A stretch of 64,000 nucleotides of DNA from Rhodocollybia butyracea (lineage: Eukaryota; Basidiomycota; Agaricomycetes; Agaricales; Omphalotaceae): positions 107,238 to 171,237 of the forward strand of contig JADNRY010000132.1 of assembly GCA_015501585.1 (NCBI GenBank). Reading direction: 5' to 3'. A program made the translations under genes and the position numbers. Below the pieces are notes generated by a model. That model made no database searches. It was not told the origin of the DNA and worked only from the letters and a program-made list of their open reading frames with translations. This document shows, one piece after another, positions 1,701 to 25,406 of this stretch; the stretch's first letter is position 1, and the number at the start of each line of letters is the position of its first letter.

Positions 1701-1722
1701 ACCAGCACCACCAGGTAACGGA

Positions 1723-3125
1723 ATGAGCCTCTTCGGCGGAGTATTCCATCTGACACCGGAGCAGTTGCTACTATTTAATTCTAAGGATCTACCCAAGGTC
1801 TCAAAGACTGCACCTATCTTTGATAAAGATGTACCATCTGGACTACCAGGATGGATCAAAGATATACAATGATTAATGGCAGCGGCTGGAATCAATGATG
1901 AAGCTGTGAAGGTTGCTAAAGCACTTGAATACATGAGCCACGCAACGCGAGAAGCGTACAAGGGTCTTGATTCGGTAGCCGTGAATCCTAATTTAGATCA
2001 GCTAATCAGAGATCTCTGCAACATTTATTTGGAATCAGCAGGCAGCGAGCTAGGTTCTCGCCAGGAGTTAGAACAAATTGTGAAAAGAAACACTCCTATT
2101 GATATTGGCAATCTCCAGAAGATCTTGGTGTATAACCGAGACTTTAAGGTACAAGCCGACAAATTAATGAAGCCGCCTGCGATTTTATCAAACATCGAAG
2201 CAGTCAGAGTGTATATTATACCTATGACATGCCGACTAGTCGATGCAATTTATGCTAGATTGAGGATTGATGTCACTCCAGCAGAGCTAGCTGTGAGGTG
2301 ACGAGAAGATCCATATGATTTGTCTAAGTTAATGGAAGCAGCTGGAAGTCTAGAGCTTGGAAGCCTTGAAACGTTTTACGGCAAAGGCAACAATCCTGAC
2401 GGACCTTTAGAGGTACCGTACTCAGCGGAAACATATAGTAGAGGGTCAATGGCATTCCCATTCGCTCCTCAGATATATCCACCAGCAGCACCTACCGTTA
2501 CACAAGTAAAAAAATGGAAACTAAAGATGAACAGTTCAATCAGATCATGGCTACTATGGCTGCGATCAAAGATACTATTACAATCAACAAGAAAGAGTTG
2601 GATTCAGTTCTGGATTTGCATCATAAGACTATCTCTAGTCTGATGCAAACTCTGAAGAATCCTCCAGAGTCAGCTAGTGCTGCTCCTAGAGTAAGCTATG
2701 CTGGTACTCATAGCCAATGCAATAATAAGGTACCTGACTGGGGTCAAGGTTGTTTCATGTGCGGGTCACTAGAACATCGTATGTCTGACTGTCAATTCTT
2801 CAATTCCTATAAGGATAAAGGATGGTTAGTTCCAGACACAACTCCGGGATCTAAGAAATATACCTTGAGAGACGGTTCGCCGTTACCTAGGACTAGTCCT
2901 GACGAATCACGACCCGAAAGGATCGCTCGTATTGCTAAGCAGAAAGGATGGGATAAAGGAGGGACAAATGCCTTCTTCGTTGAAGAAGAAGATATACTCG
3001 ATACCGCTCCTGAACAAAGTCCACATTACTCGATGTTCTTGTCATTCGCAAAGATCTTAGAGGAGCATGAAGCTAACCTCAGACAGAGAGGTCAGAAGAA
3101 TGGCTTGTCGGAGTCGGGAAACTAG
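1723..3125 (+). pseudogene. gag: gag (nucleocapsid) of the Ty3 element, disrupted
   Basis: The first ATG is at 1723 in a frame that runs on past in-frame TGA codons at 1870 and 2299. The frame then shifts by -1 at an A7 run (2508-2514), after which a 203-codon stretch carries a classical CCHC zinc knuckle (CFMCGSLEHRMSDC, about 2751-2792), the RNA-binding hallmark of Ty3 Gag. Both TGA codons are explained by one C-to-T change in a CpG. The frame closes at 3123, where another -1 shift leads into the next segment. The product would coat and package the element RNA. As read, no full-length Gag can be made unless the A7 site is a genuine slippery site. Confidence 0.8.
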
Positions 3126-3136
3126 TTGCTTCGGGA

Positions 3137-5247
3137 ATGACGGGTAGAATCACTAGAGCTAGTCCTCTAGGCATGCAGGCAGATTCGAAAATACCCTCTT
3201 CATCGAAGGAACCGGTTCAAAAGGTAGGGCCTCCGGCGAGAGGCACTCCAAGGCAACAGTCTGGGGTGATCACCCTACCAAAGGAAAGTCCTGCTACAAA
3301 AACAAAGTTTAAACAGGTTGAAGTTGTGTTACCTATTAGAAAGAATGGGCTAGCTAAGTCAACGGAACAGTCAACGAAGGAAGAGAGACCACCGGAACCC
3401 CGTGAGGCACCGAAGGCCGCATCTGTAACTTCTGGAGATGACTTGGACGAGAAGTTACTACGAGAAATCGCAGAACTTCAAGGGAATACTCCCGAGATCC
3501 AACCTAAACCTAAGCAAAGACCATTTGATTCATACAATGTAGAACCGATGCCTATAAATTTACCACTACCAGAGGAAACTGTGAAGGCTAGCACTGTAAA
3601 GGACCCTTTTGCATCGGAATCTGGACCTAAATATCAAATTCAAAATGGCTTTAGTCGATCTGGGATTGATGAGAACGTGGCGAAGAAGCTATTCAATGCT
3701 GAGGTTACCCTCACATCAGAAGAACTTCTAGCACTAGGTCTGAATCTCCAGAAAATCTTGGCTAGAAAAGCTAGAAACGTTTGAGTTGCGCCAACCAAGA
3801 GGAAAGCGGCTTACATTAGTACGCTACTCGAAGATGGTACTGAAATACCCGAAGGACCTGTGGATACTCAGCTAGCTAGCTATATTCTTTTGGATGACAT
3901 TAGTCTCCAGGATAAAGAAGTATTCGAGATACTAGAAGAGGACCAAGGCAAAATTCGAGCCGGTTCCGTAGGAAGATCTAGCAGTCTCAAGTGCATCAAA
4001 ACTAGGGTCAATAATCATGAAGAGATGACTGAAGCAATCCTCAACAGTGGCTGTCAAATTGTTGCGATTGATCAACAAGTAGCCGTCGACTTGGATATTG
4101 TTTGGGATCCCTCCGTGACGATCAGGTTACAAGATGTACACGGCAGACTAGAAGAAACTGCTGGGCTAGCCCGCAATGTTCCATTCCTAATTGGGGATAT
4201 TACTATTTACTTACAACTCCATGTACAAAAAGCCGCACCGTTTGAGATACTAATTGGTAGACCTTTCGATGTGTTGACTGAATCAGTCATTAAGAATCAC
4301 TCGAATGGAAACCAGGAGGTCACTATAATGGATCCTAATACAGGACACCAGTGTACTATGGGGACATATGTAAGATCCAATCGTAGAAGACTCCGATTCG
4401 ATGGTGCCAATTCTAATCCAAGACTGGTACCAGAAGTTCCTGCTCACGTCAAGGAAGAGGCTGAGGGAAATTTTTCAGCCTTGACGATCTGACTAGCAAA
4501 CAGGGAGAGGTAGAATTGGCTATGAGTTTTCATTTTGACGAGAATGATGAAGTTGTTTGTGATGGGTATACTACCGCGAAGTCAGGGATATTTTCGGAAC
4601 AAGAATTAAGTGAAGCGTATATTATGGCCTCTCGTGAATCTATAATGAAGGACTATCCCAAAGACGGAAGGACTATTGATGCCTATCTATCGCGTTCTGT
4701 AATTGATGAAAATAAACATGTGTTTAGTTCTTGGCGAGAAGGTCTGGATCAATCTGAAGATGAGGGACCGGAAAAAGTCTCAATAGATGACTTACCACCT
4801 TTACCAGAGGGAGCTAGCGCATTTGCAGGCTTCAAACACAAGCCTGGGACCAACAAACGACATACTAAATTGAGGTTTAAGGTTGATAAAGAGAACATAC
4901 CCCTATCTGAACCGAAAGGGGCAAGTAATCAGTCGGCTAGCGAACTAAATCAACGGCAGAAACGCAAAGTAAAATTTAATAAATACCTTAGGACAGCTGA
5001 AGACAAGGACAAGTCAAGGCCGTTAAAACCTAGGAGACAGACAACTGTTAAGAATCCTAAGGAAAACGAGCTTTATGACGTATTCCGGGTCTACGGTGCC
5101 AGAAAATATAAACCAGTCGGTGTAAAAGTACGACCTGTCAAAGCTGATTTGCCTGAAGACTTTAGGATTAAAAGGAATATCATTGGTGATCCGCTAGCCG
5201 GTATGCCAGAATTACCCTTTCATCCCCCAGAGTTTACACCGGGCTAG
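3137..5247 (+). pseudogene. Pol N-terminal linker and retropepsin-like protease, disrupted
   Basis: The segment opens with a Lys/Glu/Pro-rich linker (to 3784) and continues in the same frame past a TGA at 3782. A region of about 210 residues (3860-4492) has the retropepsin layout: NSGCQIVAID where an active-site D[ST]G is expected, and an ILIGRPF motif typical of the second half of such proteases. The N in place of the catalytic Asp is either decay or a family variant. A -1 shift at a T5 run near 4465 leads into another basic linker (4516-5247) that ends in a TAG at 5245. It should process Gag-Pol; it is probably inactive here. Confidence 0.65.
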
Positions 5248-6768
5248 CGCTATACACAGGAATGGAAAGAAATCATTGATGCCAATCATGCCGAGGATTT
5301 CTTATGGGACAAGGAACGAAAGCTCTTACACCATCTTATGAAGATACAGGAGGATGGATTCGCTTGGACAGCTGCTGAAGCAGGCACGTTTAAAGAAGAA
5401 TTCTTCCCTGTGGTTAAAATACCTGTAATAGAACATGAGCTGTGGGTAGAGCGAAATATTCCAATTCCACCAGGGATTTTCAAAGATGTTTGTAAAATCA
5501 TCAAGGAAAAGATTGATGCAGGAGTATACGAGCCTAGTAGCTTGTCCTACAGATCTAAGTGGTTTTGTGTAGTAAAGAAAGACGGTAAAAGTCTAAGGCT
5601 AGTCCACAGTTTGGAGCCTCTGAATAAAGTTACGATACAACATTTGGGTATACCTCCAGCTACTGCTGATATAGCAAGGGATTTTTGTAGTAGAGCCTGC
5701 GGAGCAACGTTAGATCTCTATGTCGGATACAATGAGAGACCGCTAGCCGTCTCCTTGCACGACCTTACAACTTTCCAGACACCGTTTGGACCTCACAGAT
5801 TGGTTAAATTACCAATGGGATGGACTAACTCCATTCCAATCTTTCACGACAATGTAACTTACATACTGAAAGATGAAATACCACATGTTACCATACCTTA
5901 TGTTGATGATGTCCCAGTAAAAGGGCCACCAACCAGGTACGAGCTAGCTGATGGAGGGTATGAAACTATACCTGAAAATCCAAAAATCAGACGCTTCGTT
6001 TGGGAACACTTGCAGAACGTAAACAGGGTAGTACAAAGGATGAAATATGCCGGTGGTACCTTCTCTGGAAAGAAAGTGTTTATTTGTTGCTCTGAGACTA
6101 TAGTTGTAGGTCACCGCTGCACATACAAAGGTAGACTGCCCGAGGATAGAATTGCTGATGTAGTTCTCACTTGGCCGGAATGCAAAGACAAAAGTGATGT
6201 GCGAGCCTTCTTAGGAACAGCTGGACAACTTCTTTGTATGTTCATTCAGAACTATGCAAAGAAAGCCATGCCTCTTACAAAGCTGACTAGCAATATGGAT
6301 TGGGAATAGGGTGATGATCAACGGAGAGCTATGGAGGAGATAAAAGAAGGAATTTGTAAAGCTCCTGCCTTAAGAACTCTCAATTACAAGTGGGATGTTG
6401 GGCTAGCCGTAGATACCTCATACAAAGCTGTAGGGTGGTTTATTTATCAAATCGATCAAAATGACCCCGGTAAGAAGTACTACAATTACTTTGGGTCTAC
6501 TACTTTAAATGATAGGGAAGCTAGGTTCTCCCAAGCAAAACGGGAACTCTTTGGACTCAAGCTAGCCCTTCAATCAAGTTATTATTTAATTTATGGTTCA
6601 CGACAAATGACAGTTGAGACAGACGCTAGCTATATAAAAGGAATGTTGGATCATCCCAGCTGCGGTCCTAATGCAACTATCAATTGTTGGATTGAGGAAA
6701 TTCGCAAATTCCACTTCGGAATTTTGCATGTGAAAGGGATTTTACATGGACCGGACGGACTATCTTGA
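5248..6768 (+). pseudogene. pol: Reverse transcriptase and RNase H of the Ty3 element
   Basis: Starting about 5338 the frame encodes an RT palm and fingers: SKWFCVVKKDGK-type fingers, LDLYVGYNE with the first catalytic Asp, a PFGPHRLVKLPMGWTN block and the YVDD active site (about 5899-5910). After an in-frame TAG at 6307 the same frame runs into a Ty3-type RNase H (6331-6768; LAVDTSYKAVGWFIYQ with its first acidic residue, and ETDASYIKG further on). The segment ends at a TGA (6766), just before a -1 frame change into integrase. Catalytic residues are visible, so decay is recent or partial. Confidence 0.85.
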
Positions 6769-8686
6769 AGACCTCCGGCGGATACGAAACCCCAAGACCT
6801 CCTATAGACCCTGACGACTACGACAATTACAACAAAGGAGCTCCCATAGAGCTAGTCATGGGTGAAGGAGCCAAAGAACCATTAGATTTTGAGTCATTTA
6901 AACATGACATTGACCCACAAAGTGGATTCCTCACTGAGCTAGCCGACTCTCCAGAAGACATTCAGGACAAGCTTCAGGTAGAATTAGATTGGGAAAGAGT
7001 ATGGGCAGATAGCCGCGAACAGCACTCACATAGTCACTCAGAAACTCTAAGTTTGTTTCATCAATCTCTGCATATACCAGAGGAATTGAAGGAGTGGAGA
7101 AAGGACAACCCTTATCCGCGAGCTCGCCGATTGAACTACGGAAATACACTGGATGACTTATTACCCCTAATCACTAAGTGGCATTCAAGTAAAAACCCGA
7201 CTAGCATCACAGCGGGGATGACTGCAGTTGAAACTCGGACATTTATACGGCACGCTAAGAAATTCTTTGTGAATGAGAAAGGCAAGCTTTATAGACGAGT
7301 GATGGACAATGAAGGTCAACACTGGCTAGTCATATATCCTGAGCATAGGATGTACATGTTGCATTGCGCACATGACAGTTTAGCTCATAAAGGTACTTTC
7401 GCTACTCGCGAATTTATTGAAAGATGTTTTTGGTGGCCTGAAATTGAGGGTGATGTACAGTGGTATGTAGGATCTTGTGTTCCCTGCCAGAATCGTTAAC
7501 TTAAACTCTTAAGGACTCCACCAGTCTTAACGCATACACCATCATTGTTCCAAAAAGTGCATGTAGATACAATTAACATGTCCCCGGACAGTAACAGGTA
7601 TAAATATATTGTACATGCTAGAGATTCTTTGTCAAGTTGGTCCAAAGCCAGAGCCTTACCGCAAGAAAACGCGCGAGCTCTGGGTGAATGGTTCTTCAAT
7701 GATATTATTTGTTGTTGGGGATGTCTGGAGGAAGTTGTAACAGACAATGCTCCCGTGATGATTGCCATGTTGGATTGGCTAGCCGAGAAGTATGGCATTA
7801 GAGGAATAAGGGTTTCACCCTACAACTCACAAGGCAATGGAAAGATAGAGCGAGCTCACTTCGACATCCGTCAAGCTCTTGTAAAAGCAATGGCGGTGAT
7901 ATTAAGAAGTGGTTCTACTTCCTAAAGCATGTTTTATGGGCAGATCGAGTAACAGCTAGAAGAGGTTTTGGCTGCTTGCCATACTTCTTAGTAACCGGTG
8001 CGGAACCTCTATTACCCTTTGATATTGTTGAGTCGACTTGGCTAGTCAACCCGCCAAGCCAAATTCTAACACACGAAGAGTTACTGGGTTACCGTGCTCA
8101 AGCACTGTCTAAACACCGGACCTTCGTAGCAGCAATGCGCAAGCGAGTCTTGGAAAATAAGCATAGAGAATTAAGGGAATTTGAAAAGAAATATTGGCAT
8201 ACTATTTTTGACTATGATTTCAAACCGGGATCGCTAGTCCAGGTTAGGAACACATCTATTGCAAAGAGTCTTGACCGAAAGATGTATCCTTGGTATAAGG
8301 GACCCATGGTGGTCATCCGTCGTACTAGGGGAGGATCATACATCATCGCAGAGATGGATGGTACAGTACTCAAGAGTAAGGTAGGAGCCTTCAGAGTACT
8401 ACCACACCGCTCGCGGTATGAACCTATCGAATTACCTGAAAATATCCACGACTTAATAGATCTATCAAAAGAACAGTTGGATCATATGGTTAATGAGAAT
8501 GAAGACAATGAGGAAGTCCAGAGAATTAGAAAAGGGGGAGACCCCATCTTTGATCGAATTCCTAATCTCCGCGTCCCTGAATCAGGCAAGGAAGTGGTTT
8601 ATAGCCCTGACAAGCCAGCATCAGATGAGGAGACAAGCGATGAGGAGGAAGAAGAATTGGACAACACTCCTTATGTCCATACTTGA
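6765..8686 (+). pseudogene. Integrase of the Ty3 element, disrupted
   Basis: This segment has the HHCC zinc-binding N-domain (HCAHDSLAHKG ... CVPCQNR, up to 7496), a TAA at 7497, then the DDE core in the same frame: VHVDTINM (first Asp), VVTDNAP (second Asp) and GNGKIERAHFD (Glu). A -1 shift near 7890 at a GG pair moves to the frame of 7976-8686, which holds the C-terminal SH3-like DNA-binding domain (WYKGPMVVIRRTRGGSYIIAEMDG). The tail is very acidic (EETSDEEEEELDN). No chromodomain is obvious. Integrase would insert the cDNA; this copy cannot be read through as it stands. Confidence 0.85.
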
Positions 8687-9035
8687 GCCATGAGAAAAGC
8701 TGACTTCAAGAAAGATGAGGTAGTCACCGCCATGTACGGTCGGCTAGCTCACTGGAAGTAATGATAGGTTAAGCTTAGCAAGTCCCTCGGATGAATCATT
8801 GACGTAGATTTATTTGCACAAGGGCACATACACCTTCAAACCAATAAATAAGTTACAAAAGAGTGACGAGCGGTTGAAGAATGTAATTTTAGAGTATAGG
8901 TGCCGGGGCTCAGAGGCCGCCAGACAAATGAGACATTACTAACTGTAAGGACAGTGGGCTAGCGGACTAGTTTTGACTGAGATAAGGGTCAGGACAGGTA
9001 CCGAGGTCAATGTGTATGCGGACTTACGACGTTGT
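8687..9035. other. Spacer between pol end and antisense gene A
   Basis: About 350 bp with no supported gene. It carries GCTAGC copies at about 8743 and 8958. The + strand pol and the minus-strand gene A converge here. Confidence 0.5.
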
Positions 9036-10871
9036 TTACTCCAAGCCTGCGCGCATGGATGAATAACACATTTGGCAGGTGGATCCTTTAAGACCACAAC
9101 CTACACAACCGGGCTTGCCCGAGATCTGTGGAACTAGTTAGACTGGGCTAGTCATAAACCCCAGACTTAAAAATTGTATTAGATGTGGAGACATACCTTT
9201 TCTTCCTTGTCGACATCCATAGGCAGAGGATCGTCGTAATGAGCAAGAACATTGGCGAGTTCATCGGCGACTTTCTTGCCATTGTTAGCGCAAGTCCAAT
9301 ACAACTGGGTCTTGGCTAGATTACCGCAATACTCGTCTCGGTGGATATTGAGCAGGGTGTTCAACATAGTGTCCGTCATGAACGAAAAGTCAAGCTCGCC
9401 AAATTTTCCGGTCAAAGACTGAAGAAAGATTTGGAACTGGATGCTTTCGCGATTAGCGCGGCTCACTACAGATTGTTGACCAGGCTGAATGACTCTGTTA
9501 GGGCAAAAAATATGTTGAGAAGTACCTGCATCCTCAGGGGTGAAATCAATGGGTTCAGCTTGAACCTTTTGTTGCTTACCAACACTAGCAGGAATGGCAA
9601 TAGGTTCATTGGATAATGGAAGGTTGACCTCGGGATCTGGGACTAGCTTAATAGAAGCCATTCGACTACCTGGAGGCTTGCCTTTGGAAGGAATGTCTTT
9701 GATATCAGGAATAGCGTCGTTGACTTGAGCTATAATGATCTGTTCCTAGAGGAATATTAAGAAAGTGTAGGATTAGGGAGAGCTAGCTGACTCACAAGTG
9801 CTTTGCGCTTAATAGCCTTGGCGGAATTACGAGTCTTCTTGTTCCTCTTACTGCGAGTCTTGCATACAGAGCCTCCTTCATCTTTGCTATCAGGAATGAC
9901 CTCTGCAGACTAGAATGTATACGAGATTAGTTTCATCTCATGAATCTTGTAAATAGAAGAGTATACCGTATCCGCGAGCTAAGTCACTTGCGATTAGTTT
10001 CATCTCACAAATCGCAATAAGACTTACGGGATCGGCCATCTATAAGACATTTGAGATTAGTTTCATCTCACGAATCACAAATGGGAGGTCACTTGCCTCT
10101 TTGTCATCTTCAATGGCGATCGGAGCTGTCTTAGCAGACTTACTGGGTTGGCTAGCCGTCTTGGCAGCTGTACTGGACTTCTTGCTGGGTGCGCTAGCAG
10201 GCGCAGAATCTCCTGAAACATGTTTAAAGATTAGCTTCCTGAGCACAGCTTCCTTTGCAGCATAGTCCGTATTCTCGGGCTGAGTCGCACCATTGTCGAC
10301 CGAAGGAGCTGAGATTGTTCAGCTAGCATACTAAATATTTTACACTGGTTGTCTTACCAGTAGGAGTGTTCACGAGCCTAGCTGCCTCGGCCTCCTGAAC
10401 ACTAGTTAGGAAGTATATGAGGGTGCGTGATTTTGCGCTTGCCTGAAGTTGCCTAAGAGAAGCTATGAAGTGGTGAATACGTATATCGTCCTCGGACCAC
10501 CGTCCACGGATGGTAGCGTGCGCAAGGCAAGCCTTGTTGAGGGCTAGCTGAGCTTCTTTGAGTTGGTCGACGTTTTTGGGGACCTTCAGAATCTGGGACT
10601 TTTTGAGAGGCTTGGTCTGGGAATCCGTTAGTGGTGTGTTTGAAAGCTGGGAGTACAAATAACTTATGAGTTGATCAACATGGCCAGCGGTGGACTCAGC
10701 TAGCTTACTGAGGAACTCGCCAGTGGGGTGCCCGTCGACCTGAGCAAGTCGGAACTGAGCCGTCGCGCTCAGTACTTGTTCAGTGGTGACCTTGAGAGTG
10801 TTGAAGAACGTCTCCATGTAGTTCTTTTCTTTAGGAAGAATAGTGGAAGGATTGCTCTGAGGAGTAGTCAT
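9036..10871 (-). CDS. Antisense gene A: Cys-motif protein of unknown function (7 exons, about 500 aa)
   Basis: The model starts at ATG 10871 (MTTPQSNPS). Exons are 10871-10358, 10308-10097, 10039-10028, 9978-9967, 9909-9796, 9745-9197 and 9125-9036. They sum to 1503 nt, exactly 501 codons including the stop, with no internal stop. All introns are GT-AG except the second (GC-AG). Two exons are only 12 nt (MADP and LADT). The protein has a helical N-terminal half, a Lys/Ser/Ala-rich basic linker (KTRSKRNKKTR) and a C-terminal zinc-like motif CVGCGLKGSTCQMC (CX2CX6CX2C) in the last exon. Introns can persist because the retroelement RNA is the other strand. It may bind nucleic acid; this is inference. 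No characterised family was recognised. Confidence 0.65.
9910..10096 (-). repeat. Three sister introns with a shared hairpin (introner-like)
   Basis: The consecutive introns 10096-10040, 10027-9979 and 9966-9910 (57, 49 and 57 nt) share the core GAGATGAAACTAAT around the branch-point-like CTAAT. In each, different flanking arms pair across the shared loop: TTGCGATT/AATCGCAA; ATTTGTGATT/AATCTCAAAT (9 of 10); TACAAGATT/AATCTCGTA (8 of 9). They are separated by two 12-nt exons with similar sequence (GCCGAT, GCGGAT), as if a small exon-intron unit was multiplied. Confidence 0.75.
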
Positions 10872-11853
10872 GATAGTACGGCCTAAGAAGGTAAAGAACA
10901 GTCCAGTTATGGGACTAGCCTTTATACTTCGCTGGATGAACATCTTTTAACCGGCTAGCCAACTGAGGACAGTTGAGATTTTAGTTAGGGGGAGGGATAA
11001 CCAGTATAGGTGAATACTTAGAGGAATGTTACGATAATTTTGCGAATTTATAGACTTATGATTGGCCACAGAGAAATTACGACGTAGGAACGACGGAATA
11101 ACTCTAAAAACATGACTAGCTGACGAATCCCAAAGAAGGGAAGATTAATACAGCATAAAAGTAGTCGGCTAGCCGTATCAGAATAGCCTAAATTTGTCAA
11201 AATCAAAAATCAGGGCATTTCCCGACTAAGCTAGCCAACTAGCTTGGCTAAGTCTGACCATCGTCGACTCAGCTAGCTCACGCACTTAGTTCAGTCTTGT
11301 GGACTGTAAGCCCCTCTCAGTTTAAAATTTTTAAATCTATCACAACTAATAAAGGCTTACACCTTGACTTAGGATAGTTTAATTTATTAATCATAAACTT
11401 ATTATGCCTAGGACAAGGCTAGCGCTTTGACTTGGGATATATCTTACTATAACTAAGCTTAAAGCTCTCAGAAAACTTAAAGTCACACAAATAAGAATAT
11501 ATACAAGGTGACCTGAAGGTCTTTTGATTGAGCAAAAGTAACTATATACATACGAGTACTTTAAGTTTGCTCTACTTAAAGTACTACTGAAAGTTTGAGA
11601 GTCTCATAAAGAGACGATGAGATACTACCCCCTCGGTTGGGGGAGACAGAATTTTAAAATCTACTCTAGAGGGATCTGTAAACCTAAAGAGAGTAAGAAA
11701 AGCCCGATTGGGCACGCGGCGAGATAAAGAAAACAAAAATTTTAAAGTCCGTAGACTATAACGCAAGATGGGGCCCGCCACCAGTGAAATGGTAGTCTTG
11801 GCAGGGATAACTGCTGCAACCTTTCACTGAGAACCCTCCGCCCCATCCGGTAC
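10872..11853. other. Intergenic region between antisense genes A and B
   Basis: It holds the probable promoter of gene A and the 3' region of gene B. TTTAGTTAGGGGGAG (10980-10994) recurs exactly at 15036-15050 upstream of gene B. A perfect 12-bp hairpin with a 7-nt loop (AGTACTTTAAGT / ACTTAAAGTACT, 11555-11585) lies about 270 nt past the gene B stop. GCTAGC occurs at about 10953, 11168, 11229, 11271 and 11418. No coding sequence is supported. Confidence 0.6.
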
Positions 11854-14598
11854 TCAATCCGCGGCGCCAGGAGCTACGGAGTCAACAACCATCGCTGAGG
11901 ACTCCACGGGAGCTGCTACAGTGCTAGCAGAGGGAGTCTCGGAAGGGGGAACCGGAGTCACCGAGCAAGCCTTGTCAACAACTGATGCATAGGTGATACT
12001 CTCGAGGAACGTCCGGAACTCCTCCTCAGTGTCCCAAGCAATAGGCAACTGCCAACCCAACAAGCTACACAAAAAGGAAAACTCTGGAAGAGTAATCCTT
12101 TTATCAGGCTGAAGAGGCACCATAGACTCGAGGAAGACCAAAGGGTCGGAACACACTTGACCGAGTTCGACGGACTCCACGGCGAAAGCTTCGTTGAGAT
12201 GGTCCAAGGTCTTGAAGGTCTCGTTGAGAATGACCATGGACTGGTCGTAAGCAACATGAAGGCCAGACATGACCCGCAGTTGACATTGGAGGTCTATAAA
12301 ATCATTGTAAATAACTTTAAAAAGAGGTTAAAATAAAAAAAAGACTTACTATCAGGAGCAGTCTTCCCAGCTTCATAGATGCGATTCAAGTGCCTGAGTA
12401 GCTCGGGTAACTCCATAGAGTCGGGACAGGACTGGTGCCCGGTACCACAATGCTTGCAGCGTGCACCGAACTTGAGCTTACCCAACGGAGTCTTCGCGTA
12501 CTCACACAAGTCGGGAATGTCCCGGATATTACAAACCAAACATTCGATCTCTTGAGGACAATCGCCCAGCTTAAGAGATCATTAATATTGAAGGAGACAG
12601 AAGACGAAAGAAGGAGACTTACCGGTTGCATTCCCCGGTTGATACCCATCATATCGGACATTGTGTACACCGTATCACCTTGTTGAAGGAGTATAGTCTG
12701 GCCAAGCTTCTGCATTGAGGGGTCTGGGGCCCAGCTTGGGCCGTCCTTGAACACGACGTTTGCCTCCTAAAATAAACATTAGAATAAGAATAGTAGGAAG
12801 AAACTACAAAAACATACCTGCTTCAAGTTCTTGTGATTCTGCCGCGTAGGAAGGGCATCGCAAATCGAGGGAACACCAGTAAAACCAGGAGCTCGCTCAA
12901 AGCTGATGATAACCTTGCGGTAGTGGTCAGGATCCACGCGCTCCCCGTCGTTGGCCTCATCTATTTGGTTGAAATCAACCAGCTCGCGGAACATACGGTC
13001 CAACAGAGCGTGGTTGGGAACGTCATGCTGAGAAATGAGAACAACCTCGCGGTCGGGATTGACTAACAAACGGGGGTATTGCGAAAGCCCCATATGCTTA
13101 GTCAAGGATCTGCTAGCTTGACCCGAGGACTTAGAAGTACTGGCTGGCTTAGCAGCGACGGTTGGGACTTCAATGGTTAACTCATCCTCCTCAGACTCGG
13201 GAGGAGTGAACTATAGAATTGTAAACTTAATTAGGAAGAAGAACATGATGAGCTAGCCACGTACCAAGTCTTCTGCATCACCGACAGGGACTCTACCTTC
13301 CAACTTAACGGTAATCTTAGGTTTGGGGCGCGGTACTGGGAGCAACAACGAAGACTTGGGCTTCTTGGACGGAGCAGACTTCTTCGAGCTCTTGGCGGCC
13401 TTCTGTGCCCGAGAACGGCGAGTTCGTCGTGAGGGAACGAAAGGACGGTCCTTCATATCCTAAAATATGTATATTAGCTTAAATCCTAAAGAAAAGTGGA
13501 GGAAAAAGGAATGTACCTGCGAACAAAGACATTTACTCGGAGGCTCTTCCTCGAGCTCGTCCTCGTCACTTCCCTCCTCCTTGTCCAGCTCATGTGTGGA
13601 AGGAGCTTTCTCCAGCACAAGCGCGGAAGAAAGCAAGCGCTTTCGAGGAATCACCACCTGCGGGACCACAGAAGGGACTGATGACACTGAGGATTTGACC
13701 TTGCCAGAAGAAGAAGGAACCGCCAATAAGGCGTCCATCTCATCCTGGAATGACGGAACCGCAGGAGTCAGCAGAGCACTTTGCTGATCAACAAACTTGT
13801 CTTCCTCCTGAGCGGCGGCTAAAGCCTCAGCGCGGGCCACGAGCCAGGCCGACTCACGGCAAGCAGTATCGAAAGGAATAGTGAGACAGAAATTAGGCAT
13901 AATACGATGTTGTTTGGCAGCGGTCTGAAGACCCAGTCAGCGAGATGTCTTAAAATTATAAGACAAGAAATATGTACCAAGATTTTGTCTACGTCATCCT
14001 CTGGAAGAAACCAGGGAGGAGTAGCAGCCTTGGGAGAAATGGTGGAAGAAGCGCGTTGACAAAAAGCAACCAGACACTCGACAACCAAGGATCCGGTTTG
14101 TCGACGAATGTATTGTTGGCTAAGGAACCCCTGTGAGTCAAAGCCTCGGAATCAGAAAATGCGTGAAATATATCATAGAAATTTAAAGAAACGCACCAGG
14201 AGGATTTTCAACAAGGATAGGCCCAACCTTATAAGTGACGAGAAATCTTGCGTTTGGAATTTTGAATGGTCATCTTGACCTTTGGCTAAGACGGCGCCCA
14301 AACTCGACTGAACGACGCGAGTGGCAGTCCAGATCATACGCGCGGATACGCCGGGATGAATAGTCAGGGAGGAGTTGAGTGCACCAAAGCGATATATAAA
14401 GAAGAACGAGTCCTCCTGTGAAACACCAGGGTTTTCGAACTTAGCCTTGAGTGGCTCAACGAGCTCGAAAAATGATGGTTTGCTTGACGGAAAGTCGCCG
14501 AGCTCCTTCAGGGACGTCTCCAAGCTGGTAATATGGCTATATTTGTTAAGGAGCGACTTGTCGTAGAGCGAAGGATGAGAAGACCGAGTTGAGTCCAT
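11854..14598 (-). CDS. Antisense gene B: large Cys-rich protein of unknown function (8 exons, 784 aa)
   Basis: Start ATG 14598 (MDSTRSSHP; an in-frame ATG at 14628 is an alternative). Exons are 14598-14197, 14130-13978, 13924-13517, 13459-13265, 13210-12818, 12766-12623, 12569-12350 and 12293-11854, totalling 2355 nt and 785 codons with no internal stop. Six of seven introns are phase 0. The protein has a helical N-terminal domain, a Ser-rich acidic middle, a Lys/Arg-rich patch (RRTRRSRAQKAAKSSKKSA), then a cysteine cluster ECLVCNIRDIPDLC followed by CKHCGTGHQSC (a CX2CX6C half-cluster like fungal Zn2Cys6), and an acidic-hydrophobic C-terminus. Nuclear or nucleic-acid binding is inferred from the basic patch and cysteines. 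It reads cleanly although the gag-pol beside it is broken. Confidence 0.65.
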
Positions 14599-16964
14599 GG
14601 CAGGGGGAAAGAAAGAGAATGAAGGCAAGTTGAAATTTTCAACACACCTTATAAATCACCCTCGAGGCGGTGACCATCGTAAAGCTTGGTTGCGATAGAA
14701 CATTTGTAATTCTATCACATAGGTGAAAAGAGGAATCACAAAGTACAAGTTGAGAAGCTTTAATCACTATAATACGTTATGTTATTTAAATCAAGATCTC
14801 ACGGTTTGATCTGATTCGGGAGTGTAAGCGCTCGGCGGAAATAACCGAGAGCTCACTAAAAGTTAGACGCTGGGAACTACTGAGTGACTTAAGCGCCGAA
14901 TAACGGCAAAGTTGGACTTAGAAAAGTTTCGGATGCCCGCAGTGGGCTAGCTTATTCAAAGTACCAATTGCCACAATAAAAGGGATTGCTAGCCAGTCAA
15001 GCCCAACTAGCCGAATGACCGGGGACGGTCAGATCTTTAGTTAGGGGGAGATAATACGCAATTTTCGCGCCTAGGCGTGTATTTGTACTTTTTGACTAAC
15101 TGTACAACATATACAATGCAATAAGAGAACTATACGGAGCCCAAGTGTGATAGTTGTAGCAGAAGCTTAGTATCTTAACAATAATACTTAGCTAGCCGTT
15201 ACGATACGCCTACAAGCGTAGTCGGAAGCCAAGCTAGCGGGGATACTTGAGGTGCCCAGAAACGTTAACACTAGGCTAGTCGACCTAGTTCTACTCAGGA
15301 GTTACCATGCTCACAAAAGGGACGTCTCAAAGTGGGATAAGAGCTAGCGGACGCACCACCCGGGGATATATTCTAAGAGGGAAGGCAAACCTCGTACTTT
15401 GAATCGGCTAGCTTACCAGAATACTGTAGATCTGACAATCCGCAAGGGAATCAAGATAATCCAAGTTCATGGACCGGAACAAAGCAGGGATACCATCCGA
15501 TGTAGTCGACTAGCAAATTTGACTGAGACTCGGTACCGTGTCGCTAAAGATACGCCGAATATTATAAATCACATGCCAAGACTAGCACAGACCGTAGAGG
15601 AGATATACCGGTACACAGAAGTGCACCACCTCCCAAGAGATTATAGAACGTCAGCCGAAGGTACTCTACGAGGAAATACACTTATAGATACTAGGCTAGC
15701 CGACTCAACTTACATGATATTAGTGTCGTTAGAAAGCTAGCGCACAGGGCTAACTGTTCCGAATGCTTCCCCTTGATGGAGAAGCACTAAGAGCTAGCCG
15801 ACTACATTTTAACATCCTGAGTAAGACAGAGGAAAGCAAGTACGCAAGGTACAAGCACCGCTGCCTGAAAGATGAACCTGCGGACTGCGGGGCGGATTAC
15901 CATCTAGGACCAAAGGACTTTAACCATTTTAATATATACAAGTTACTACCTGATTTGGACATGCGTAGTAGTTTGGACAGTTTTACCATATCCTATATAC
16001 CCTTTATGGCGACGAGTTTCCTTTCCTAGCCAACTCTCTGTCTCTCTCTCTGTTTCTCTCTCATAGTTTGTGTGTTTCGTATCTTTTCGTATTAAACTCA
16101 TTTCTCTCTATATATAAGCTTAGGGTATTTACCTAGAAATACAAGTTACCCGCCACCTCCTACATACGAGATTGGTAGTGTTACTTCAATTTTAGAAGTT
16201 ATTTGCCCCGCGTTATAAGTTAGGGAGTGCAGGCGCCGCCGACTCAGTGACAGCTAGCCACTTTAATAAGGACAAGTGCTTCGACGATATTCATTGTGCC
16301 CACTTTAGTTTTGGTTAGAACTTTAGTGTGTATCCATAACCAGTTTAAATCTAGTTGCTTCCTTAGAGGGGACGGTTTCTAGTAAGGGATTATTTGTCTC
16401 CAGAGTGAGGGTTACTTAGCTAGCTGAAAAGTTAGTGTGGTACGAGTTCCTGGTAATTTGGTATTACCTTCAGTTTAGTAGCCTAGCCCAGTGTTTGGTT
16501 AGGGACTTTACGGCAATTCGCTAGCTGGTGCCAGAGTTTGCCCAGGAGTGTTTCAAAGCTTTGTTGTTTGACGACTAGCCAGAGCCAGAGTTTGCTTGGG
16601 AGTATTCATACTTCGTTTGTTCACATCCCCACTACGCACACACCTTGTTCACCAACCAACTTAGAGAGCTAGCTCTGTCAGCAGAGCTTATTTGATATAG
16701 TCACCACGCTAGCCCTATACTCCGTACTAGAGTTTGTGTTAGCTAGCGCAGTCCGATCTTATTGTTATCCCGGAGGAATCTCTGACAACTCAACCTCGCA
16801 CCTAAATTTGATAGTCTGTCTTAGTGCGGTATTGTTCAGTAGCTGTTACAGTTGTTTTGTAACACATTTCAAAGACCAGTACATACTAGACCAATTATCG
16901 GCGAAGGAAGGGGAAAGTCCGGCCACAGTCCTTCCGCAACGGGGAGTGAGAACAATAGCAGAAC
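14599..16964. other. 3' untranslated internal region of the Ty3 element
   Basis: This 2.4 kb region runs from the gene B start to the 3' LTR. It is the densest zone of GCTAGC (about 15 copies). It holds TTTAGTTAGGGGGAG (15036-15050), a small hairpin GATAGAA/TTCTATC (about 14693-14717), a CT-rich microsatellite (about 16036-16063) and a purine-rich tract (GGGGAGTGAGAA, 16941-16952) that may be the polypurine primer for the LTR starting 12 nt later. Two short + frames are listed separately. Confidence 0.5.
15399..16029 (+). other. Two weak adjacent open frames, doubtful
   Basis: Frames of 113 and 88 codons (15399-15740 and 15763-16029) lie in different phases separated by 22 bp. The upstream frame lacks a strong ATG context, composition is unremarkable and no domain is recognisable. 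Both contain the repeated GCTAGC motif, whose reading (LA, AS) inflates protein-like appearance. They could be remnants of one frame joined by an indel, but chance is about as likely. Confidence 0.15.
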
Positions 16965-17157
16965 TGTTATGACCCGGATCTAAATCCTATACACCCAATC
17001 TTTTTTCTTCTGTAACCAACTATGAACACTATCATTAATACTTCTACTTAACATTTTACATTCATTAGTTATTCAACACCATTTGGGTTAATGCTGCACA
17101 CATTCTTCCAGAACACCAGAATGATCTTTAACAGTCACTGCACAGTCTGCACAGTCA

Positions 17158-17428
17158 TGACATCATTCTAGCTCCACAACTATGATGTCATCTTGCTACT
17201 CCACAATCATGATGTCATTCCATTGCTCCGCAGTTATGATATCACATCACTGCTCCACAGCTATGACATCATTGCATAGCCTCTTTACATCAATGACTCA
17301 ATATCAGTCATTGCACAGCCAGATATCTGAGTCAACTACGGTTCCGCATACATGACTCAATATTAGTCATTGCACAGCATTACATAGTCAGACTGACTCA
17401 TCCGCAGTATTTCCGCAGTTATGACTCA
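17158..17428 (+). promoter_or_regulatory. Array of ten bZIP-like sites in U3
   Basis: Five CRE-like octamers (TGACATCA 17158, TGATGTCA 17183, TGATGTCA 17210, TGATATCA 17237, TGACATCA 17264) are spaced 25-27 bp apart in a tandem repeat with CTCCACA-type flanks. Five AP-1/Gcn4-type heptamers follow (TGACTCA 17294, TGAGTCA 17328, TGACTCA 17353, 17394, 17422). The array ends about 50 bp before the TATA box. The CRE-like copies look like TGACGTCA after CpG deamination. This suggests activation by Gcn4/cross-pathway or stress bZIP factors. Confidence 0.65.
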
Positions 17429-17473
17429 AATCTAGTCATTCCGCAGCATTTCCTAACTAGTACACATTGCACA

Positions 17474-17486
17474 GTATATAAGTAGT
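17474..17486 (+). promoter_or_regulatory. TATA box of the + strand LTR
   Basis: GTATATAAGTAGT lies between the bZIP-like array and the hairpin array. The same 13 bases occur on the minus strand at 18783-18771 in the neighbouring LTR-like sequence. Transcription would start about 30 bp downstream, which places the hairpin array in R/U5 of the RNA. Confidence 0.65.
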
Positions 17487-17582
17487 CTAGATTTACCAAT
17501 GTACGTTAGACGTATTATTTTTCTTAAATCCAAACCCCCACTTGTTTGCTGTTATCACTTGTGTGAATCACCAGACCAACTC

Positions 17583-17984
17583 ATTGTATCTTGTTGAGCT
17601 ATCTCCAAGCTACAATACACATTTATACATCTTGTTGAGCTAACTCCGAGTTGTATCCACTAACATTCACCTGTTGAGCTATCTCCTAGTGAATACTTCT
17701 TTAATTGCCACTTGTTGAGCTATCTCCGAGTTGCAACTTCCTATTACTTGTTGAGCTATCTCCAAGTATTAGACATTACACTCACTATTACTTGTTGAGC
17801 TATCTCCGAGTATTAGACATCACACTCACTACTACTTGTTGAGCTATCTCCAAGTATTAGACACCACACTCACTACTACTTGTCGAGCCAACTCCAAGTA
17901 TTAGTTCTGATTCATATTACTGCTTGTCGAGCCATCTCCGAGGGTAATCTTATTATTATTTGTCGAGCTATCTCCAAATAATAA
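17583..17984 (+). repeat. Ten hairpins with constant cap and varying stems
   Basis: Each unit has a cap TTGAGCTATCTC (variants TCGAGCCAACTC, TCGAGCCATCTC, TTGAGCTAACTC) flanked by arms that differ between units but pair with each other. Unit 1 is ATTGTATCTTG/CAAGCTACAAT (10 of 11). Unit 4 is TTGCCACTTG/CGAGTTGCAA (8 plus one G-T wobble). Unit 10 is TTATTATTTG/CAAATAATAA (10 of 10). Inside the cap GAG and CTC can also pair. Spacing is about 34-48 bp. The array lies in the presumed R/U5 leader. Confidence 0.8.
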
Positions 17985-18015
17985 CTTCTGTGAGTTTTGT
18001 ATTACAAACTAGTTA

Positions 18016-18447
18016 CTAACTGTACTTGAGCCTAGTTGTTTGAGTATATATTTTTTGCCTAGCGGTTTCAACGATAGGAAAGGCTTGCTCTATAATCTCA
18101 TTAATTTCTCTTATCATTTTTACTGCCGAGTTACGTACTGTGAAGGTTTGGATGAGACTATTGATCGAGTCATAACAAGAACCACCTGCACTGGGATATT
18201 CTTTGACTTTGTATTCCCTGACATCAATACTACCTAGCGCTGCCTCAGTAGAGACAGCCGTATTTGGAACAGAATCTGCGGGACCGAAACCACCCAAACC
18301 ACGTTGGCAAGGATTTCCGGCCGTAGAGACGGAATCGTTGTATGGCACAAACGATTGTGCGTTGGCCACAAAGGGATTAGGTGTCTCGGTCGGTAGGATC
18401 TGAGTCTGTGAAATGTTCCTAGTTCTAGGGGGTTTTTGTGGAGGCAT
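18016..18447 (-). pseudogene. Gag-like N-terminal fragment of a second, minus-strand retroelement
   Basis: ATG 18447 opens 143 codons (MPPQKPPRTRNISQTQ...) ending nine bases past the + strand LTR. The basic, Thr/Ser/Pro-rich N-terminus followed by a helical stretch (MIREINEIIEQAFPIVETA) resembles Gag N-termini of fungal Ty3 elements, but there is no knuckle or other diagnostic motif. Upstream lies an LTR-like sequence in the same orientation. The abrupt end at the neighbouring LTR suggests the Ty3 element inserted into this gag. An unrelated host exon is possible. Confidence 0.4.
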
Positions 18448-24837: not shown

Positions 24838-25406
24838 GACAACTGAGGGCCCCGGAAACTCCACCCAACCTTTGTCCGGAATAGCGTATTTTAGGTCGAA
24901 ATTTTTGCGAAATTCCTGTCCTATTATAGCGTATTCTAGGTCAAATGGTTGGCTTCCCTGTCCTTATATAGCGTACTTTAGGACCGGCTACCAGCGTGGA
25001 GCCGAAATTTTTGAAGTACTTAGGTGATTGCAACGGAGGTGTACGAAAAATCTACCTTTCCATTGTCCATCTATTGTCCATTGTAAGCTCTTCAAGCAAG
25101 ATGAGCTGAGCGCTGTCCAGCTCGTAGCAGAAGCTGGGACGTGTCATCAAAAAGATACTTAAGTAGTTTTTGGTATATGAAGCCTGTAGGAGCGCCTAGA
25201 ATTTTTTTTTGGAATTTTTGGAATTGTTAGCGTTTTTTTTTATTCACGTGACCATCCCTGTCCGAAATAGCGTACTTTAGAACGAGTATTCTCTTCTCAA
25301 AAGACTAGCTAGCTAGGCTAAGCGTACTTGAGCTCAAAAGTATAGCGTACTTGAGGGTACTTGGGCGGACAAAGGTTGATAGGAGTTTCCGGGGCCCTGA
25401 CAACTG
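24838..25406. mobile_element. hAT-like MITE (553 bp) with 8-bp target duplication
   Basis: Terminal inverted repeats AGGGCCCCGGAAACTCC (24846-24862) and its complement (25382-25398) extend to about 33 bp with a few mismatches (inner block AACCTTTGTCCG). They are flanked by GACAACTG on both sides (24838-24845, 25399-25406). An 8-bp duplication and AGGG-type ends fit the hAT superfamily. Subterminal phrases ATAGCGTAYTYTAGG recur on the left (about 24882, 24926, 24967) and variants ATAGCGTACTT on the right (about 25268, 25343). No transposase is encoded, so it is non-autonomous. Confidence 0.85.

Follow-up and report, generated by a model that had tools for sequence, protein, structure and literature searches.

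The closest described system is that of the VANDAL transposons of plants. There a short motif is over-represented in one family and rare in its sister families, YAGTATTAY being set against AGTTGTCC/AGTTGTAC (PMC5735166, PMC10398659). Both binding of VANC to its motif and loss of methylation have been demonstrated in Arabidopsis (PMC5735166). For fungal DNA transposons bearing TET/JBP dioxygenases, including those of Agaricomycetes, methylation escape via an element-encoded protein has been proposed (PMC12730594). Here we analysed a stretch of 64,000 nucleotides from the agaricomycete Rhodocollybia butyracea (Agaricales, Omphalotaceae; contig JADNRY010000132.1, positions 107,238 to 171,237; hereafter the window), which carries a truncated Ty3-type long terminal repeat (LTR) retrotransposon of what we call family F1. 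The element is studded with the palindrome GCTAGC. Its sites are palindromic and specific to the family, they are switched between F1 and a sister family, F2, they are phased in both, and both families encode a fast-diverging protein in antisense orientation. As detailed below, we cautiously favour the explanation that these are family-specific arrays of sites read by a self-encoded protein in a VANC-like manner, possibly against silencing.

Counting GCTAGC returned 52 copies in the window, 48 of them between 2286 and 16746, in line with the approximate number given in an earlier reading by eye (the original prediction), which also counted four elsewhere (located here at 25308, 38824, 46359 and 61252). 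That reading put the chance expectation at about 3.5, and dinucleotide-preserving shuffles of 1701-16898 contain 3.65 copies on average and 9 at most in 300. Two controls proposed at that time gave concordant results: in a ranking of hexamers GCTAGC tops the over-representation in 1701-16964 (base-composition expectation 2.9), and the genome searched (95.6 Mb in 1,381 contigs) holds 14,590 copies, i.e., one per 6.6 kb versus one per 0.32 kb in the element, whose density is ~20 times the genome average. GCTAGC accounts for 48 of the 116 CTAG tetramers in the element region and for 4 of 126 elsewhere in the window. The end-base variants mentioned earlier are also in excess, with 12 ACTAGC and 9 GCTAGT where frequencies outside the element region predict 4.4 and 1.3, respectively. 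Some of the coordinates listed at that time were off by 1-9 bases (4156 is 4165; 5741, 6401, 13251 and 16741 were one too low, and 7779 one too high). The 48 sites, spanning 2286..16747, begin at the following positions.

2286 3349 3587 3871 3875 4165 4813 4936 5193 5243 5742 5943 6402 6561 6625 6938
7778 8743 8958 9782 10151 10193 10322 10543 10699 10954 11168 11230 11272 11418 11923 13112
13252 14946 14988 15191 15233 15343 15407 15695 15736 15793 16253 16419 16520 16668 16708 16742

Judged by the order of its domains, the element carrying these sites belongs to the Ty3-type LTR retrotransposons. RNase H-like domains (PF17919/PF17917) and Integrase_H2C2 (PF17921) exceed the Pfam cut-off in F1, and RVT_1, rve, aspartyl protease and zf-CCHC score below it but stand in Ty3 order. 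Its parts are given below (ORF, open reading frame).

1701..16898, + strand: Ty3-type LTR retrotransposon of family F1, lacking its start and 5' LTR through truncation at ~1701; from Pfam domains, a sister copy and the F2 comparison
1873..8686, + strand: gag-pol region, with in-frame stops in the window copy; from ORFs and domains; 17 GCTAGC in 1701-8686
9179..10871, - strand: antisense gene A, exons partly modelled and start set by eye; from ORFs; 6 GCTAGC in 9179-10946
10947..11853, no strand: region between gene A and gene B; 5 GCTAGC
11854..14598, - strand: antisense gene B, predicted to comprise 8 exons and 784 amino acids, open; from an exon model; 3 GCTAGC, 2 of them exonic
12351..12569, - strand: exon of gene B with six Cys, all invariant, plus one His (CX2C-X8-C-X15-CX2CX3HX2C), candidate zinc- or DNA-binding module; from an alignment of 7 sequences of five families
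15039..15051, + strand: polypurine tract AGTTAGGGGGAGA, abutting the 3' LTR; from sequence, F2 being arranged likewise
15052..16898, + strand: 3' LTR of F1, densest part, 13 GCTAGC in 1.85 kb; from the ends of the genomic repeat and homology to the F2 LTR

The density of GCTAGC per kb is 2.4 in gag-pol, 3.4 in gene A, 5.5 in the gap between genes A and B, 1.1 in gene B and 7.0 in the LTR. The exons of gene B had rightly been described as poor in the word (2 copies in 2,355 bp). The statement that the LTR has none arose from a boundary error, as the element's own 3' LTR is 15052-16898 with its 13 copies. The word is also present in a second F1 copy on contig C555, which is 98% identical to the window element, and in an old F1-type LTR; an F1-like stretch (L031) carries 9 copies in 8.5 kb.

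The 48 sites have symmetric flanks in common, i.e., A at -5, T at -3 and a purine at -1 with the complements opposite (A-T--GCTAGC--A-T), and an expectation-maximisation motif search, in which palindromy was not imposed, recovered the same symmetric motif. An extended palindrome of this kind is the trace expected from a dimeric DNA-binding protein. The F1 motif trained outside gag-pol found 18 matches inside gag-pol versus 1.6 in shuffles (threshold 9). Sixteen sites lying in gag-pol ORFs are distributed over the three phases as 11/5/0 (chance 0.0015): 11 encode x-Leu-Ala, five encode Ala-Ser and none puts TAG in frame. The TAG (5245-5247) of the 17th gag-pol site, at 5243, closes one ORF of the window copy as an in-frame stop.

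The sister family F2 carries another word. F2 and F1 are 80-85% identical in the protein sequences of reverse transcriptase (RT), RNase H and the integrase core, and 72-74% identical in polymerase DNA. The F2 copy on contig C537 has 4 GCTAGC in 19.5 kb. CGAGGA/TCCTCG occurs 48 times in F2 versus 11.5 times in shuffles (maximum 21 of 300), and a motif search in F2 led to the degenerate 12-bp palindrome TTCYCKMGRGAA. For these comparisons the k-mer background comprised 15 of 25 loci, leaving out L019 and L020 (fragments of F1-type LTRs) and the short L001-L008; the motif scan and the blind search described below each took ten of 17 stretches as background, the blind search using their first 8 kb, and a nested element was removed from L032 and L033 before counting. 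Matrices cross-trained on two pieces of F2 gave 30 matches versus 5.9 in shuffles and, in the reverse direction, 29 versus 5.0 (threshold 9). At the same threshold a matrix from all of F2 found 77 matches in 16.1 kb of F2 and 18 in 45.8 kb of non-element window sequence. Genome-wide, the exact TTCYCKMGRGAA pattern occurs 556 times versus 73 times for its reversed control, and the F2 motif was seen in two more F2 copies (L034 and L037).

The four GCTAGC of F2 represent three places, one being present in both LTRs, and they fall exactly at the F1 sites 6938, 14988 and 15233. At the F1 sites 7778 and 5193, F2 carries GCTCGAGAA and CCTCTCGAGGGAA, respectively, both of the F2 motif type. Two of these positions are also informative for a third family, F3, which is described below.

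6938..6943, no strand: GCTAGC site shared, at identical position, by F1, F2 and F3; from the family alignment
7778..7783, no strand: GCTAGC site common to F1 and F3, F2 having GCTCGAGAA there, of its own motif type; from the family alignment

The simplest reading of the alignment would be that GCTAGC is ancestral and was later replaced in F2. As the word was swapped in F2 while relics of GCTAGC were kept, we read the difference as a putative switch of specificity between sister families. When palindromes were searched for blindly, GCTAGC came up in each of the two halves of F1 (11.3 and 12.9 bits) and also in F3 (9.5 bits), and the two F2 pieces each yielded the F2 word (11.0 and 9.7 bits). 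Twelve of 16 background stretches (10 loci and 6 from the window) score 7.2-8.6 bits in that search; the other four reach 9.2-10.2 bits with other words, one of them with a AGCTAGCT-like centre.

The sites also show a preferred spacing. Six pairs of exact F1 sites lie 40-42 bp apart versus 0.45 expected, a count not reached in any of 5000 random or 5000 jittered sets, and sites of the F1 motif model give 8 pairs at 40-43 bp versus 1.46. F2 has 9 pairs at 40-43 bp versus 2.2 (0 of 3000 jittered sets), other thresholds giving 9 versus 2.7, 7 versus 1.5, 6 versus 1.2 and 5 versus 0.9, and it has a second spacing at 30-33 bp (8 versus 2.1). Because 42 bp correspond to four helical turns, sites spaced in this way face the same side of the helix. 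Tandem duplication as the origin of the spacing was rejected, since the spacers of the pairs are unrelated (identical positions number 3-9 of 26 in the listed F2 pairs and 8-14 of 34 in those of F1).

15191..15280, no strand: three sites in a row in 42-bp steps (15191 GCTAGC, 15233 GCTAGC, 15275 GCTAGT), spacers unrelated
10151..10198, no strand: site pair, 42 bp apart
11230..11277, no strand: site pair, 42 bp apart, between gene A and gene B
14946..14993, no strand: site pair, 42 bp apart, 14988 being kept in F2 as a relic

F3 (contig C1238) has 11 GCTAGC in 5.75 kb versus 1.24 in shuffles (maximum 5 in 1000), plus one in L038, and a 4.2-kb element nested within F3 has none. Its flank differs from that of F1 at -1, where T stands in 10 of 24 cases versus 7 of 96 in F1 (p=0.00014). 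Over ~1.1 kb the polymerase DNA of F1, F2 and F3 is nearly equidistant (74.1, 72.5 and 75.5%). The original prediction had named related full-length copies lacking the enrichment as grounds for its refutation. GCTAGC enrichment is literally absent from F2 and from the partial copies of two further families, F4 and F5; in F2 the absence amounts to motif replacement, and in F4 and F5 it is plain absence. In F4 the gene B region (L033 and L036) is close to that of F3 and a nearby LTR is 90-95% identical to that of F2, a possible case of recombination between families or of nesting. The nested element (L032 about 3050-7300; also L009, L024 and L033) contains inverted arrays of ~21-bp units with AGGTCATGACCT, a dense palindrome of an unrelated repeat. 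AGGTCATGACCT was considered as the motif of a third family in L032 and L033 and was rejected, as it sits in these tandem arrays.

Which protein could read the sites? Fast-diverging homologues of gene B are present in F2-F5, and the predicted junction of exons 7 and 8 agrees with a database protein of F3 (P0121). Two exons in the F3 stretch L032 correspond in every residue, by visual comparison, to a database protein of R. butyracea. Between F1 and F2 gene B is 24-36% identical, the range for RT, RNase H and the integrase core being 80-85%. Its exon 8 is 42% identical between F1 and F3 versus 32-33% to F2; thus the two families with the common GCTAGC core are likewise the closer pair in gene B. 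The two F1 copies differ in gene B by 2 nonsynonymous and 7 synonymous changes (p=0.0009), which suggests that the gene was under constraint until recently. In F3 a long helix is predicted after the Cys module, with a pLDDT (predicted local distance difference test score) of about 83-92 over most of it and of 58.6 for the whole model. Searching the genome with exon 8 gave 61 matches at E<=0.1, of which four were weaker than 0.05, and the exon 8 profile has 5 matches in the protein database, the sole named one being a hypothetical protein. No full-length relative of gene B was found at E<=0.001 among 7,995 candidates in the protein database, gene B had no significant match in Pfam, and a structure search with the model gave 20 matches at E<=10 and none at E<=0.001. 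The gene B protein family thus matches nothing in the searched libraries of named families and structures. For gene A, one exon of the F2 homologue is 44% identical and the other exon lacks a significant match.

The surroundings of the element can be described briefly. Relatives of the 15052-16898 repeat across the genome mostly share its ends and are mostly 82-87% identical (40 scored of 995 candidate places), and the repeat is homologous to the LTR pair of the F2 element on C537. F2 has a complete LTR pair (99.8-100% identical) and polypurine tract, and the window copy keeps the 3' LTR only. The LTR termini at 15052-16898 and at L028 1481-3320 appear to be TAAT/TATT...ATTA/AATA and not the usual TG...CA. 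The repeat at 16965-18178 was rejected as the LTR of F1 and is that of another, very young family, with copies 98-100% identical (40 scored of 365 candidate places). The internal region of F1 was unmatched in all 17 stretches beside nine or ten of these 40 scored copies, and the stretches carry 0-4 GCTAGC each except L019 with 7; L019 and L020 hold fragments only of the 15052-16898 type of LTR. The 16965-18178 LTR contains 44-bp tandem repeats and sits close behind the F1 LTR. An inverted repeat at 1589-1700 with 52-bp arms, 87% complementary (a hairpin resembling a miniature inverted-repeat transposable element), lies precisely where the element is truncated on its left side. A relative of the F2 pol in Lentinula edodes is 68% identical, and no relatives were found in viral_contigs or genome_contigs. 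An archaeal assembly (Thermoplasmataceae) lists a protein (P0008) 70% identical to the F2 pol, probably a fungal contamination.

If these observations are put together, the GCTAGC words would be putative binding sites, dispersed over the element, of a self-encoded protein that binds DNA as a dimer. The most likely reader would be the product of gene B, with its six-cysteine module followed by the predicted long helix, and this protein may occupy adjacent sites cooperatively along the same helix face. By coating the DNA of its own element it could protect the latter against chromatin silencing, as VANC does on VANDAL. The parts of this proposal differ in strength. It is quite probable that a sequence-specific protein helping the element recognises the words, and somewhat less so, though we still regard it as probable, that such a protein is self-encoded. 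Anti-silencing as the purpose is a tentative suggestion that may well be wrong. A shade more doubtful again is the proposal in its fullest form, namely, a self-recognition and anti-silencing system of an LTR retrotransposon in a fungus, in which each member of a new six-cysteine family encoded antisense to pol reads its own palindrome, phased at ~42 bp on one helix face over the whole element, and protein and sites may have switched specificity together between sister families.

A number of observations weigh against the proposal. Regarding the reader, the product of gene A may be an alternative candidate, and gene A diverges as well; the Cys module has no counterpart among Pfam or PDB families or among known DNA-binding families, and both structure models are weak. 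Other parts of F1 and F2 diverge fast too (gag 59-62%, protease 60%, one stretch 49%, the zinc-binding part of integrase 63%). The gene B exons of the C555 copy, which lies at a contig end, contain 13 small insertions/deletions as assembled, and the gene is either broken or badly sequenced there. Regarding the sites, core bases changed between the two F1 copies at 1 of 126 positions versus 0.86% elsewhere, i.e., with no extra conservation. At the 12 of the 17 gag-pol sites that could be aligned, F2 matches the F1 core at 44 of 72 bases, a low value that fits turnover of sites and gives no hint of long conservation of single ones. The F2 word is degenerate, as the full TTCYCKMGRGAA pattern has just 3 exact matches in 16.1 kb of F2. 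With four background stretches at 9.2-10.2 bits, the blind-search score alone does not set F3 and one F2 piece apart, and in L031 that search ranked another word first, not GCTAGC.

The families beyond F2 and the spacing add to these difficulties. Relatives of gene B are present in F4 (L033, contig C520) and F5 (L035, contig C1072), and motif scan and blind search found neither motif in F4 and no motif in F5. F4 is a real gap in the proposal, since its gene B is close to that of F3 (53.5%) and yet it is motif-less. Long stretches cover F1 and F2 only, F3 being represented by 12 exact sites and F4 and F5 by partial copies. The 42-bp spacing was spotted post hoc in F1 and then tested in F2, where the excess at the strictest threshold is not significant (1 versus 0.38); F3 has no site pair at 40-43 bp, and one of six control counts on window stretches reached p=0.027, the other five not.

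Other explanations account for parts of the pattern. An element-encoded transcription factor may control only the element's own promoters, in the LTR and in the region of the gene A and gene B promoters, with no anti-silencing involved. The density peaks in the LTR and in the gap between the two genes would agree with this, and the Cys module plus the predicted long helix would be in keeping with a dimeric regulator of the ordinary kind; nevertheless, the 17 gag-pol and 6 gene A sites are far from obvious promoters, and a spread over 15 kb would be needless for such a role. We consider it unlikely, though it is the alternative to be taken most seriously. An element protein may also serve another process involving the whole element, such as nuclear partition, centromere-like clustering, copy-number control or the handling of complementary DNA. 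Phased palindromes would suit spreading or partition proteins too, but nothing specific points there, and the change of motif fits an arms race or the distinction of self from non-self better, so we regard this as improbable.

Hosts possess sequence-specific factors acting on transposons, and GCTAGC could therefore be read by a host DNA-binding protein, or be a host methylation or repair signal, the element having gathered the sites. The latter option, raised in the original prediction, found no support, as the sister family in the same nucleus manages without GCTAGC. One host signal would not switch by family, and F2, in the same genome, is nearly devoid of GCTAGC and carries another palindrome, while F3 has other flanks; the chance of a host reader seems slim to us. 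Least probable by far, and hardly credible, is an origin of the enrichment as a side effect of mutation bias, codon choice or tandem duplication. The 11 of 16 sites in gag-pol ORFs that encode x-Leu-Ala are in its favour, but intergenic DNA and the LTR are at least as dense in sites, and the Ala-Ser codons at five of the 16 further bear out the early claim that codon choice alone is insufficient. Unrelated spacers between phased pairs also speak against it, and neither the symmetry of the flanks nor the positions of the relics in F2 is explained by mutation bias.

Returning to sites read by a self-encoded protein, the arrangement can be compared with several known systems. Zn2Cys6 transcription factors of fungi have a CX2CX6CX5-12CX2CX6-8C cluster and a helix suited to dimerisation, and they bind palindromic sites. 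The gene B product resembles them in its six conserved Cys ending in CX2CX6C, in the subsequent predicted helix and in the palindromic form of its putative sites, whereas its spacing (CX2C-X8 to 18-C-X about 15-CX2CX6C) differs and no Pfam Zn_clus match was obtained. The TET/JBP route differs in being enzymatic and in being described for DNA transposons only (PMC12730594); no TET/JBP domain turned up in the pieces scanned with Pfam. Retand elements of plants, which are Ty3 elements as well, carry antisense TRP28 genes, as the window element carries antisense genes A and B; the accessible text on Retand reports tandem repeats and no dispersed family-specific palindrome (PMC11963269). The scanned pieces of genes A and B had no Pfam match to the TRP28 domain (PF04195).

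The likeness to VANC and VANDAL drawn in the original prediction stands at the level of sequence, with a dimer-like palindrome, a family-specific word, a swap between sisters that left relics and a fast-diverging gene B. A dense short motif that is specific to the family and different in sisters is found in F1, F2 and F3 and was not seen in F4 and F5. VANDAL carries an accessory gene with highly variable regions (PMC5735166), for which the diverging gene B would be the candidate counterpart. The likeness fails in other respects: VANDALs are Mutator-like DNA transposons and the window element is a Ty3 LTR retrotransposon, and the VANDAL motif is non-palindromic, mainly non-coding and arranged as tandem repeats in one orientation, whereas GCTAGC, a palindrome, also occurs in coding sequence and shows its phasing in the absence of tandem repeats. 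The VANC21 word of plants does not stand out in the R. butyracea genome (1556/1487 versus 1359/1329 for the reversed control). No like system in a retrotransposon or a fungus was found in the literature searched, most subscription papers lying outside the search. The principle is already known from plants, and the setting in a retrotransposon and a fungus would be new. The data suggest that each element may mark its own DNA for recognition by its own protein. Sister families in one genome, with relic sites still visible, could make such a change of protein-DNA code over dozens of sites, if real, traceable and directly testable. If the proposal is true, sequence-specific self-marking of the kind described for VANDAL arose independently in a fungal retrotransposon and would be a general strategy rather than a peculiarity of plant DNA transposons.

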